Notes under the pieces: model-generated
Databases searched by the model: none
The model's input: only the letters and a program-made list of their open reading frames with translations
Told to the model about the DNA's origin: nothing
DNA from: Mesostigma viride
Taxonomy: Eukaryota; Streptophyta; Mesostigmatophyceae; Mesostigmatales; Mesostigmataceae
Direction of reading: 5' to 3'
Assembly (NCBI GenBank): GCA_009746045.1
Contig: RPFO01002017.1
Coordinates: 62,001-126,000, forward strand
Length of the DNA stretch: 64,000 bases
Translations under genes and position numbers: made by a program
Shown here: in pieces, positions 396-63,372 of the stretch
Layout of the letters: every line of letters begins with the position of its first letter
Numbering within the stretch: the stretch's first letter is position 1

Positions 396-762
396 CGCTC
401 ATGGCAGCTGCTCACCGCAGCTAATTATCCAAATGCTCCTATCACCCACCACACACCAGTGGCAGCTGCTCACCGCAGCTACTTATCCAAATGCTCAAAT
501 CACCCACAGCGCACCAGTGGCAGCTCCTCGCTGCAGCTATCCATCAAGGTACTCCTGTCACCCACCACACACCAGTGGCAGCAGCTCACCTCCCCGCCAA
601 CCCCAGGACCCCTATGACCAGTGCAGTTTGGGTTTAGGGTTTTGGGTTAACACCCGTGGCAGCAGCTCACCTTCCCGCCCACCCCATGACCCCTATCACC
701 GGGGCAGTTTGGGTTTAGGGTTTAGGGTCAACACCCGTGGCAGCGGCTCACCTTCCCGCCCA
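396..762 (-). repeat. Tandem copies of the B9D1 exon-5 donor edge
   Basis: Read on the minus strand, the true exon edge GGGCGGGAAG followed by GTGAGC (about 740-762) recurs near 658-680 and 575-597 at about 79-bp spacing. More diverged copies about 60 bp apart (share GGCAGC..CTCACC on the plus strand) continue down to about 400. Two copies carry a TTTAGGG-type telomere-like stretch (about 635-655 and 711-730). These are intronic echoes of a splice junction. Confidence 0.7.
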
Positions 763-2074
763 TCCCCCCGGCCAGGAAACCGAGGGTCCGAGAACTCAGC
801 GGGCATGCCCGTGACCCACGACATGAACTGCTGGAAGAGGGATGCCGAGAGTGGCCGGTACAGCCGCACCTTGGACAGGAATCTGCAGATGGGGTCCGCG
901 ATTGGTGCGCCAGATGTAGTAACCGGAAGCAGTGAAGCTCTATGCAGTGATCAGTGTGCCAGCATTAGTAACCAGAAGCAGGGAAAGTGGGTGCCGACAA
1001 AGCCAGCAATCAGCAACCGCAGGCACGGGCACGCGGTGGACTACGGAGGGAAGCTTACTGGGAAATGAACTTACTGACGAGAACGCCTGATAATCGTCTG
1101 ATGAAGGAGGCTTGCGGAAGGAGAAGAACCCCCAAGGACAGACCTCCCACGCCCACCCCCACCCCCAAATAGAGATTGGATCCCCACCGTGGTTTGGCAG
1201 GGAACATGCGAACATGCGGAGCCAACAGACTGATTTACTATGCTCCGTCCGATCTAATTCATCGAAAGATGTGGACAACAGATAGTAGGTGGCAGTGGGA
1301 CCCAGCGCACCTGCCAGCCGCGGTGGGCAGGTGCACCGCCCCGTAGCCCTTGATGACGTCACGCCCGAGCGCATCAACTTGGAACACGCTCAGCACAAGC
1401 TGGCGCGTCGGTAGGGGAGCAGGCAAGCAGAACACGTTTACGGGGGCACAGGCCCGAAGAATCCACACAGAAGAGGAGATAAAAGGCAGGATGACCGAAT
1501 ACATATGAGGACTTGCATGAATATCCGGAGTTTTACAGAATTAGGCTAGCGCATGCCATGGTACATCGACTGTCCAGTGCTGCATGATTGCAAAGCGACA
1601 ACTGGCACAAGGTCGGTGCATCTCGCTCACCCCCCATGTGGTAATCTCCTGTGTCGGCTCCGAGCCCACGCAGGCACACTGGACTGAGCATCCACATACC
1701 TACTGACATACTTGCTCTCTACTTCGTGACTTGCACCCCCGCATAGCTTATTGGTCCTTACTGTCTGACCACATAGCGTTCTAACTCTACCATTTCAATG
1801 TATTGCAAGCGCTGGCTCACCTGCGGCCAGACAAACGCATCGGTACCGGGAAGTTCCACAGAGCCCCCTTAGGTGACTATCTTATTCTAACCGCTTATTG
1901 AACGAAGCTGCTGGCTCACCTGCGGCCAGCCGAACGCGTTGGTGCTCTTGTATGTGATGTCGATGGGGAAGTTCCACACAAGGGACGCGTCAGGGCCCGA
2001 CGAGCGACGGGTAATCTGGGTGATGCCGTCCTCCACACCCTGGAGTGGGGGGCTTGAGGGGGGGTTTGAAATGG

Positions 2075-2122
<48 letters not shown>

Positions 2123-3474
2123 CAGGTCAGTCAACGAGCATGCACAACTGTCACAAGCTTGTTGGCGTGACCGTGGAGAAATAGAGAAAATTGTCGGCCT
2201 GTCCACAAGAAGTACGTCTTGGAGCTGCCATAGAGAAAAACGAGTGGCCAGAGAGCAATAAGCAGCGAGACATGCTGGCCTCAGTTACTGCTCCGACACA
2301 TGCTAATGGAATTGTCCACAGGTGTACTGCCAGTAGTGTACATAACTTCATAACCAACTCTCCTCGCAGTGTTCCTCAGGGAAACTACATGGGTGTGTGA
2401 CTGAGCATATGACAGTTCGTAAAATTTAGGCCTATGGTATGACACCTAGTAGTATAGTAGGCTGGCCGCCGGGACAGGTGCTCCTTTCTAGACGACATGC
2501 CAAGATTTTGCAAGGGGTGACAGGGTAGGCCGGGGTAAGCAAATACAACATATACAACCTGACGCAGCACAACACAATCGGATGCCCTGTCATGCCTTTG
2601 GCATGGCCTTGGGCCAAGGTCAGCATACTTCATCTAAACACCAGTTTCAAAAAGGCAAGAAACGTCCTTGTGTGGATATCTTCCCTTCGTGGCGGTATGG
2701 AATCAAGAGTCAAACCCATTGTGAGCGGCCGCCCTTGTATCCATGTCTGCACTAACCAGCACTACTTAAATTGAAGGGCAACAGCCAAAGCCCTCAAGGA
2801 ACAGGCTAGCCATGCCAGAACACCACCAGCCCCTGGGTGATGTACATAGAGCATGCTGCGCAGCAGCCACATTGACTATGATGTGAAGTTGGCTTGGGCT
2901 TTTCTATGCCCATCAAGTGACACGACCGTGGCATCAGTTGGACTGGCAAGGCAGTGGGTTGGACACTGGATTCTCAATTGGATATGGAAGACTGGTGGGT
3001 GGGTAAGGGGGTTTCCAGGTACTATTCCGACGGCAGGGATTGCTCATAGAAATACGAATACTCACATCCAGGACGTGCCAGTCATCGCCATGGACCATTA
3101 CATATTTGCAGTAGGCATTGTCGGCATCGGGAATCTGCCATGCAAAAGCCATGCAGTGCAAAAGGATCCTACAAGTTAAATATTGGGCGAGAAGGCGGAG
3201 GTCTACAGGAAACCAAAAGGCTGTCTACGTCTTTCGCTGCCTACGATGTTTCACAGTTCGAGGCAACCGGAAGAAAAATAGCATCGAAAAAAAATGACAT
3301 GAAAATCAATGCGAGGCAAAATCATTCGATCCTTAATGCAACGAAAAAGGCAGGCGCACGTAGTGGACAGCACGCGAAGCGCATACGCAAATTGGCGCGG
3401 TGAAAACATGTGATCCTTACATCAGCGTACTCCAACTGCCCAGTGGCCATCAACATAAAGCTTGTGGGGTCCAT
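752..3474 (-). CDS. B9D1: B9 domain-containing protein 1, 5' five exons (partial)
   Basis: B9D1 is a component of the MKS/B9 complex at the ciliary transition zone, the gate at the base of cilia and flagella. Exons on the minus strand are 3474-3421, 3134-3066, 2039-1920, 1399-1311 and 882-752. All have GT donors and AG acceptors, with phases 0,0,0,2,1 that chain without a stop into 154 codons plus one base. The start ATG at 3474 gives [18 protein letters not shown]. Family landmarks are NAYCKY in exon 2, [25 protein letters not shown] text in exon 3, GYGAVHLP in exon 4 and [15 protein letters not shown] with GREG-like end in exon 5. These match B9D1 more closely than B9D2 or MKS1, from memory of the family. 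About 50 C-terminal residues expected from the usual length of about 200 are missing beyond the left edge. It is divergently arranged with the armadillo gene. A 36-base C run (sense strand) lies upstream of the exon-3 acceptor. Identification is confident; the 3' end is not seen. Confidence 0.86.
1809..1865 (-). repeat. Decayed copy of the end of B9D1 exon 3 in the next intron
   Basis: The plus-strand text GCTGGCTCACCTGCGGCCAG at about 1810 repeats the true exon-3 donor edge at about 1912. It continues with a gapped copy of the following exon bases (ending GGGAAGTTCCACA). It is a splice-edge echo about 100 bp downstream of the real junction in the direction of transcription. Confidence 0.75.
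2076..2111. repeat. 36-base G homopolymer (C run on the B9D1 sense strand)
   Basis: An uninterrupted G run in the plus strand lies 37 bases upstream, in transcription order, of the B9D1 exon-3 acceptor. It could serve as an extreme polypyrimidine tract. Length may be inaccurate in an assembly. Confidence 0.9.
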
Positions 3475-62339: not shown

Positions 62340-62897
62340 TTAATATATAATTCAGACATAGTGATAAGATAAGATATGACCAGTACTCATGTGGCCCTGT
62401 GACGATAAGTAGACAGGATTATCCTAACGATGATCATTCTGACCCCTGTCGCATTATTTTCGCTTCAACAATCCCGCGCGTGCGTTGGACGTATCCATCC
62501 GTTACCGTGCAACAAGCCACCCCCAACAACATCTTTGATCACAAACCGATGGCAACGTCCTGTTCTGAACCGCATATTCCTGGCCAGCCAAGCAAGGGAG
62601 TTCGTTCATTCCTTGTGCCAACCTCTGTCACACGGCCAAAGCACACCGCGCCTGGCACCCACACTTTACTTTCTAACAGCCCTCGCCCTCGCACCCTGTG
62701 TTCCATGTGACAGCCTCTATCACTCGGCCAAAGCATGCCATGCCTGGCACACACACTTTGGGCTGGCAAAGTAAGCGCAGGATGACACACCAGGTCAGCC
62801 CCCGTGACAGCATGATTTGCGCTGTTACTACGCTCTGCGTGTCGAGCTGACGACCTTGTTCACGCCCGATCACTATAGCAGCAGCGAAAAAAGCAGA
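62340..62897 (-). other. Probable intron of the binding-protein-like gene
   Basis: Holds two similar stretches, about 62630-62695 and 62700-62760: CACACGGCCAAAGCACACCG and CACTCGGCCAAAGCATGCCA, each followed by a CTGGCACACAC-like run. An exon linking the two phase-incompatible exons could hide here. Confidence 0.35.
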
Positions 62898-62932
62898 CGC
62901 AGCAGCAGCAGCGGCGGCGGCGGCGGCGGTGC
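62895..62932. repeat. GCA/GCG trinucleotide repeat
   Basis: GCAGCAGCAGCGGCGGCGGC-type run of about 12 units; would encode poly-Ala or poly-Ser if translated but lies in an intron in the proposed model. Confidence 0.85.
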
Positions 62933-63154
62933 AATACACAATAGTATATATCAGGTCACTATAACGCGCCGCTCTACTGTACAGGGTGGTGACAATGCCT
63001 GACGTCCCTGCCTGCACCTCGGCATTCAGGAAGTTGATCGTGTCCATCTCCTGCGACAGAAAATATTTATTGCAACATAATTACGGCAGGGCCGGCCTCC
63101 AACAGGGGCGCAGCTAGCCGTCAGCTTTGCAGCCACCTGACCACCATTCCTGAG

Positions 63155-63372
63155 GTCATGCTGCTCCGTTCCTAAGGTGGTGTTCCAGATCTGAGGTCAT
63201 CCTGCTCCGTTCCTAAGGTGGTGTTCCAGATCTGAGGTCATCCTGCTCCATTCCTAAGGTGGTGTTCCAGATCTGGGGTCATCCCGCTCCGTTCCTAAGG
63301 TGGTGTTCCAGATCTGGGGTCATCCCGCTCCGTTCCTATGGTGGTGTTCCAGATCTGGGGTCATCCTGCGCA
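63155..63372 (-). repeat. 41-bp tandem repeat, about five copies
   Basis: Unit TGTTCCAGATCTGAGGTCAT then CCTGCTCCGTTCCTAAGGTGG. The last copy merges into GGTCATCCTGCGCACGTTTC, the edge of the proposed 63430-63384 exon (minus strand), as in the other exon-edge arrays. Confidence 0.85.

Follow-up and report, generated by a model that had tools for sequence, protein, structure and literature searches.

How does the edge of a coding exon, together with its splice site, come to be repeated inside the neighboring intron? This question is raised by a stretch of the genome of the early-diverging streptophyte Mesostigma viride (assembly GCA_009746045.1, contig RPFO01002017.1, positions 62,001 to 126,000 of the forward strand), a window of 64,000 nucleotides in whose own coordinates all positions below are given. 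The window holds a gene for a protein with a kinase domain, a RING domain, and armadillo repeats (the armadillo gene), the gene B9D1, and two pieces of a third, binding-protein-like gene. In the first two genes, copies of exon edges, which we call echoes, stand inside the adjoining introns. Our best reading of them, to which we give a probability of about two in three, is that tandem duplication of units of ~100 bp recurs in the introns, sometimes across a splice junction, and that the copies then decay.

Exon-edge echoes in the armadillo and B9D1 genes

The armadillo gene (4398 to 33647, plus strand) was delimited by its spliced open reading frame (ORF), by Pfam matches, and by comparison with the published gene model. 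Once spliced, it forms one open frame of 2433 amino acids in 25 exons; 23 of its 24 introns are GT-AG, and one, intron 17, is GC-AG. The kinase, RING, and armadillo repeats were assigned to the encoded protein by Pfam. Our model is identical to the published jgi/Mesvir1/10901 at 2433 of 2433 residues, and therefore the outermost splice sites are the annotated sites at all 24 introns. A preliminary description of the window had held that the functional site is always the outermost one; judged by annotation, this would be true throughout the armadillo gene, whereas the published B9D1 model differs from the one built here at intron 5.

We aligned 40 bases of each exon edge to the adjoining intron and compared the scores with those from shuffled introns (300 dinucleotide shuffles for the 48 junctions of the armadillo gene; plain shuffles for B9D1, the third gene, and the dynein genes described below). 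This comparison, close to a check proposed in the preliminary description, gave P < 0.01 at 11 of the 48 armadillo junctions (3D, 4D, 8D, 16D, 16A, 17D, 19A, 20D, 20A, 21A, and 23D, where D is donor and A is acceptor). For 12 of the 48 exon edges, the edge's own intron outranked all 23 others (2 expected). Scores of at least 35 were reached by 8 of 48 junctions and by 0 of 200 windows taken from exon interiors; among these 200 controls, 8 gave P ≤ 1/60 (60 shuffles), 2 of them scoring above every shuffle, and 5 ranked ahead of all the other introns. Nine introns carry echoes by the strict exon-only test. Adding intron 15 brings the count to 10, and intron 14 (P = 0.02) would raise it to 11; introns 5 and 12 reach P = 0.04 only. 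This is fewer than the 13 or more of 24 introns first claimed. Echoes had also been described from all three host genes, as probable in the third. They were found in B9D1, at 2 of the 10 junctions tested (P < 0.01; five introns; the upstream intron of the published model lay outside the test), and the third gene showed no echo at its single testable junction, 63050/63051 (P = 1.0).

On the donor side of the armadillo gene (plus strand throughout), the simplest cases are single copies. The tail of exon 3 (bases -28 to -9) recurs at 7167 to 7185 with a displacement of 109 bp, the junction itself being outside the match. The end of exon 8 and its donor recur at 12886 to 12922 (35/37; displacement, 129 bp), and those of exon 14 recur weakly at 21166 to 21185 (18/20; 108 bp). 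Exon 17 is followed by a copy of its end and of its GC donor at 26178 to 26254 (77 bp, 94%, five changes; 140 bp); the GC of intron 17 (26110 to 26783) is retained in this echo. Two echoes each follow exon 4 (8254 to 8295 and 8360 to 8393; 101 and 199 bp; GT retained), exon 16 (within 24487 to 24622; 87 and 188 bp), and exon 23 (32715 to 32749 and 32766 to 32796), in all three cases with the donor; a further, weaker exon 4 copy was seen by eye near 8450 to 8475. Two donors lie in arrays. A 71-bp array (22687 to 23366) starts in the tail of exon 15 and runs through the donor; Tandem Repeats Finder (TRF) places 9.2 copies at 22687 to 23343, and GC replaces GT in the six copies listed. An 84-bp array (29379 to 30204) starts likewise in the tail of exon 20, with four copies and a degenerate one at 30117 to 30191.

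On the acceptor side, the start of exon 16 has three echoes (23775, 23902, and 24003; span, 23775 to 24040), and that of exon 20 has four (28482, where AG is lost, 28580, 28631, and 29051; span, 28482 to 29100). Single acceptor echoes belong to exon 17 (25692 to 25714; 21/23; displacement, 261 bp), exon 21 (30353 to 30382; 27/30; 132 bp), and exon 22 (31398 to 31423; 22/26; 165 bp). In B9D1 (minus strand), the exon ending at 1920 is echoed at 1807 to 1844 with its donor retained (displacement, 99 bp), and an array at 369 to 766 starts in the exon ending at 752, with units of 81 bp and then 58 bp and donor copies at 670, 589, and 473. For these positions, 23 satellite stretches were masked by hand in one of the alignment runs. 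The copies reported earlier at the ends of exons 4, 15 (about nine), and 17 (77 bp), at the start of exon 16, and in two places of B9D1 were all recovered. At the end of exon 20 the four copies were confirmed, with a period of 84 bp in place of 81 to 82 bp.

Could these matches be due to chance or to a faulty assembly? Low-complexity tracts are indeed present in echo-bearing introns. Against such an origin stand the shuffle, other-intron, and exon-interior controls, the divergence of the copies, and the recurrence of echoes at an independent dynein locus, and we regard its probability as close to nil. Mis-assembly in particular is unlikely because the copies are mostly 72 to 98% identical, some with insertions or deletions, and the published assembly, to which the window appears to belong, was built, according to the genome paper (PMC6947507), from PacBio and Illumina data and an optical map. 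The same paper gives a genome size of 441.8 Mb, a mean intron length of 1141.9 bp, and a repeat share of 30.1% of intron space. Introner elements would be expected to recur as one element in many introns of the genome; here, 12 of the 48 exon edges matched their own intron better than any other, and a 450-bp stretch containing the exon 4 echoes, the sole stretch searched, had one match in 440 Mb when very common words were skipped. When 25 echo segments were compared with the exons of the gene, the adjacent exon matched best for 19, and the 6 misses were weak or short. Decayed armadillo-repeat exons were therefore rejected as a source of the echoes, since echo-bearing exon edges prefer their own introns and these segments match the adjacent exon best.

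The dynein locus comes from a sample of dynein heavy-chain genes, found with Pfam PF12774 (44 matches), of which four stretches (L038 to L041) were analyzed. Their exons were modeled with a hidden Markov model (HMM) built here and with AAA_6 matches; on its own training set, the armadillo gene, the HMM recovered 23 of 24 donors and 24 of 24 acceptors. Echoes were found at 5 of 24 dynein junctions (P < 0.01), every one in L038 (C1690), where they make up 5 of 10. Exon interiors gave P < 0.01 in 1 of 77 cases, and scores of at least 28 were seen at 4 of 24 junctions and at 0 of 77 interiors. Donor displacements at this locus were 91, 115, and 335 bp. Echoes are not private to the window, and they are uneven between genes.

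Anatomy of the copies and their relation to splice junctions

The echoes are direct repeat units that overlap an exon-intron boundary. At exon-edge windows, direct repeats were found in 73 of 239 and inverted repeats in 0 of 239. Within the window, the first donor copy is displaced by 74 to 140 bp. Donor matches usually cover 14 to 39 bases of the exon tail (45 bases aligned); the exceptions are intron 14, with 12 exon bases, one B9D1 copy, with a single exon base, and intron 17, where the match totals 77 bp. At the donors of introns 4, 8, 16, and 17, similarity stops 5 to 12 bases inside the intron, and in introns 15 and 20 and B9D1 intron 5 the whole unit, exon tail and intron start, is repeated. 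Acceptor matches take in 9 to 27 exon bases and usually the AG; in introns 20 and 21, similarity stops just upstream of it. In 9 of 20 comparisons, the remainder of the unit retains residual homology at P ≤ 0.05; examples are introns 8, 14, and 16 and, on the acceptor side, the copies in introns 15 and 19. Repeat units of 65 to 116 bp also occur inside introns, with lengths of 90, 115, and 104 bp in armadillo introns 7, 9, and 16 and of 65, 70, and 76 bp at the dynein locus. Intron 9 also contains a 25-bp satellite (14965 to 16900; 77 copies, 100% matches by TRF).

These features can be accounted for if local direct duplications, with units of mostly ~65 to 140 bp, arise again and again in M. 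viride introns. Some of these would span a splice junction, so that a copy of the exon edge and of its splice site ends up inside the intron. The outermost site would stay beside the intact coding exon and continue to serve, because splicing at an inner site would nearly always insert a stop. As such duplications accumulate and the inner copies decay freely, echo arrays, longer introns, and strong cryptic splice sites would result. We infer the mutational step, which may be replication slippage or the fill-in of staggered breaks, as well as the order of events and the failure of the echoes to be spliced. Duplication by fill-in of staggered nicks in plants was reportedly described by Schiml in 2016. 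Such fill-in would be expected to give units of the observed order.

Several observations weigh against recurrent tandem duplication. The intron-derived remainder of the unit lacks homology in 11 of the 20 comparisons, notably in intron 17 and at the acceptor of intron 20. In intron 17, the exon part is alike at 67 of 72 positions, and the 56-bp remainder shows no homology; had a unit of this age, here or at the intron 20 acceptor, arisen by simple tandem duplication, its remainder should still be readable. Of 19 armadillo repeat families, 12 touch a junction (12 of 15 once short-period satellites are set aside), where uniform placement predicts 2.2 to 4.6 (P from 6e-8 to 2e-4). In the other three dynein loci, 0 of 14 junctions carried echoes. 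The proposal that introns grow by junction-spanning tandem duplication and decay accordingly fared unevenly: it agrees with the whole-unit arrays of introns 15 and 20 and B9D1 intron 5 and with the residual homology elsewhere, and it fits less well where the exon edge alone is alike.

Are splice junctions, then, themselves the targets? Splicing or transcription could promote copying, perhaps through breaks or template switches at exon edges, in which case echoes would be centered on junctions and not incidental to them. The 12 of 19 families speak for this possibility, as do the ends of similarity a few bases into the intron or just upstream of the AG, the echo of intron 17, and two additional dynein echoes that lie outside the family count. 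The count itself involved choices. Four of 23 armadillo families were dropped by hand (three exon-exon armadillo pairs and one poly-C pair), and the intron 3 family was counted as touching the junction, its pair straddling it; for dynein, eight families were merged by hand, and the echoes at 1A and 3D, found with exon queries only, were left out. The armadillo excess holds up under a two-fold detection bias (P < 0.02); under a four-fold bias, P is 0.005 at 40 bp of overhang and 0.12 to 0.26 at 77 or 100 bp. Junction echoes stay readable longer than wholly intronic copies because their exon half is held by selection, and this probably explains part of the apparent excess. A better-kept exon half is expected in any case, one partner being a constrained exon.

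Other counts speak against targeting. At the dynein locus, three of the eight families touch a junction (1.3 to 2.6 expected), with no clear excess. Windows of 50 bases with a local direct repeat make up 0.41 to 0.42 of intron interiors (>300 bases from a junction) versus 0.22 to 0.31 at edges. When 40-base points were scored for repeats within 400 bases, donors gave 7 of 24 versus an intron average of 0.14 to 0.20 (pooled, 0.26 to 0.32), and acceptors gave 1 to 2 of 24 versus 0.10 to 0.16 (pooled, 0.26 to 0.31). Intron-interior points therefore bear repeats more often than acceptors, and at one-half to two-thirds of the donor frequency by intron average or about equally when pooled. By such base-wise counts, in which intron-interior satellites weigh heavily, junction specificity is unseen at acceptors and at most two-fold at donors. 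In support of recurrent duplication in introns, local repeats are far rarer in the neighboring 33.7 to 57.3 kb, which has no known host exons (0.013 to 0.018 of 2303 points). Taken together, we consider junction-targeted copying unlikely. Its strongest form, in which M. viride exon edges are duplication hot spots, tens of bases of exon edge are copied with the splice site by a junction-linked process, and introns grow from their edges and leave a readable stratigraphy, is in our view just as doubtful. Exon-edge-only echoes of the intron 17 type leave a junction-linked mechanism some probability.

Echoes might alternatively be remnants of intron birth, as in the Rogers model, in which an intron arises by tandem duplication of an exon piece containing AGGT. 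CAG|GT or AAG|GT is indeed found in several echoes. The model predicts that the donor and acceptor surroundings of one intron resemble each other, and here they do not: their mean score is 13.0 (maximum, 17) versus a mean of 13.5 between different introns, and 0 of 24 armadillo introns exceed 17, the 99th percentile between different introns being 24. With this negative own-boundary test, intron birth by AGGT duplication is disfavored, and we hold it to be highly improbable.

Splice-site potential, gene annotation, and surrounding sequence

Many echoes look like usable splice sites. With a matrix derived from the used sites of this locus, used donors scored at least as high as the scored echoes at 10 donor junctions, with ties at the intron 20 donor and the two B9D1 donors. 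Among acceptors, an echo outscored the used site in three of five cases (intron 15, 8.0 versus 5.5; intron 16, 6.9 versus 2.1; intron 21, 7.6 versus 5.0). The scores of seven echoes, taken at coordinates 1 to 6 bases off, were set aside. Translation through 20 of 21 echo sites would bring a stop (a hand-chosen set from the armadillo gene, with the intron 15 donor array and B9D1 outside it); the sole exception is the echo of the exon 21 start at the intron 20 acceptor, which adds 132 bases that are open and in frame. The earlier suggestion that many cryptic splice sites are left behind is therefore borne out as far as sequence can tell.

Could selection, or gene conversion with the exon, be preserving the echoes for a decoy or regulatory role in splicing? 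The high scores of many echo sites, the three acceptor echoes that exceed the used site, and the better preservation of the exon part in several echoes would fit such a role. However, at none of the 10 donor junctions does a scored echo surpass the donor in use, a comparison made with a matrix built from the used sites; the site is missing in several echoes (armadillo intron 3, dynein introns 3 and 4, and the intron 15 array with GC for GT); and nearly every echo use tried ends in a stop. We find maintenance very unlikely, and recurrent duplication with decay remains our preferred reading.

Echoes can also mislead gene finding: our HMM called two echo copies as short exons. For B9D1, the exons at 752 to 3489 were used here (minus strand; B9-C2 domain, by Pfam and protein match); the published model starts further upstream, and the next exon starts ~70 bp past the left edge of the window. 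The assembled product matches M. viride jgi/Mesvir1/10900 with 100% identity at a query coverage of 87%, and the next match is Klebsormidium nitens at 81%. At 752 to 882 and in the sampled stretch L002, the published model (Mv08609) omits a 19-residue stretch conserved in Klebsormidium and inserts one that is absent from Klebsormidium. The discrepancy, likely an annotation error, sits at the B9D1 donor that carries most echoes.

Two pieces of the third gene matched no Pfam family. Near this gene lie a 41-bp array (63150 to 63369) and a 92-bp spaced repeat (62609 to 62759), neither tied to a splice junction. Long ORFs at 46262 to 50781, 52155 to 54563, 34883 to 36054, and 56601 to 57080 resemble, by eye, retrotransposon polyproteins and a transposase. 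Further stretches sampled from the assembly (L002 to L017) contain few host genes and served for background repeat density only. Two of them, L006 and L010, are gene-dense, with 63 to 66% GC, and look bacterial by eye; L014 (C1550:20001-30000) is gene-dense with many ORFs on both strands. All three are possibly contaminants or inserted foreign DNA.

Significance and comparison with known systems

The echoes provide a datable record of intron lengthening in an early-diverging streptophyte. Each pairs a constrained reference, the exon, with a free copy, and the rates of duplication and decay and the fate of redundant splice sites become measurable. They also bear on how the spliceosome chooses the outermost among near-identical sites and on annotation errors in echo-rich genomes.

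No description of the Mesostigma echoes appeared by title or abstract among the literature matches listed. The earlier statement that no named class exists for them is nevertheless too strong, as related cases are described in PMC2812944, PMC3443670, and PMC4974935. By period and copy number, the arrays of introns 15 and 20 and B9D1 intron 5, and only these, are ordinary minisatellites (head-to-tail units of ~10 to 100 bp in at least three copies); outside these arrays, an exon edge mostly has between one and a few copies, spaced apart. Unlike in minisatellites, the first unit of these arrays takes in a coding exon edge and the used donor. Tandem genomic duplication is known as a mechanism of intron gain (PMC3443670; also treated in PMC2891723). 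Common to both is local tandem duplication as a source of splice sites; here, the boundaries of an intron are unlike each other.

The closest parallels come from human and potato. De Grassi and Ciccarelli (2009, PMC2812944) described internal tandem repeats at exon-intron boundaries from segmental duplications of the human genome, and there as here the repeats overlap the boundary and change gene structure and the number of splice sites. The human cases involve recent paralogues, repeats partly retained in mRNA, and novel introns, whereas Mesostigma has decayed intronic copies, a coding sequence as published, and many affected introns in one gene. In the potato RdRp gene, a duplication crosses an intron-exon boundary (Ma et al. 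2016, PMC4974935); there too the splice junction lies within the duplicated unit and is present in a second copy, but the potato gene gained a new intron, whereas in Mesostigma, going by the published gene model, an existing intron was lengthened. We judge the density of echoes, measured in this one genome, to be unusual; the underlying process is already known from a small number of genes elsewhere, and the echoes represent it in a dense form.

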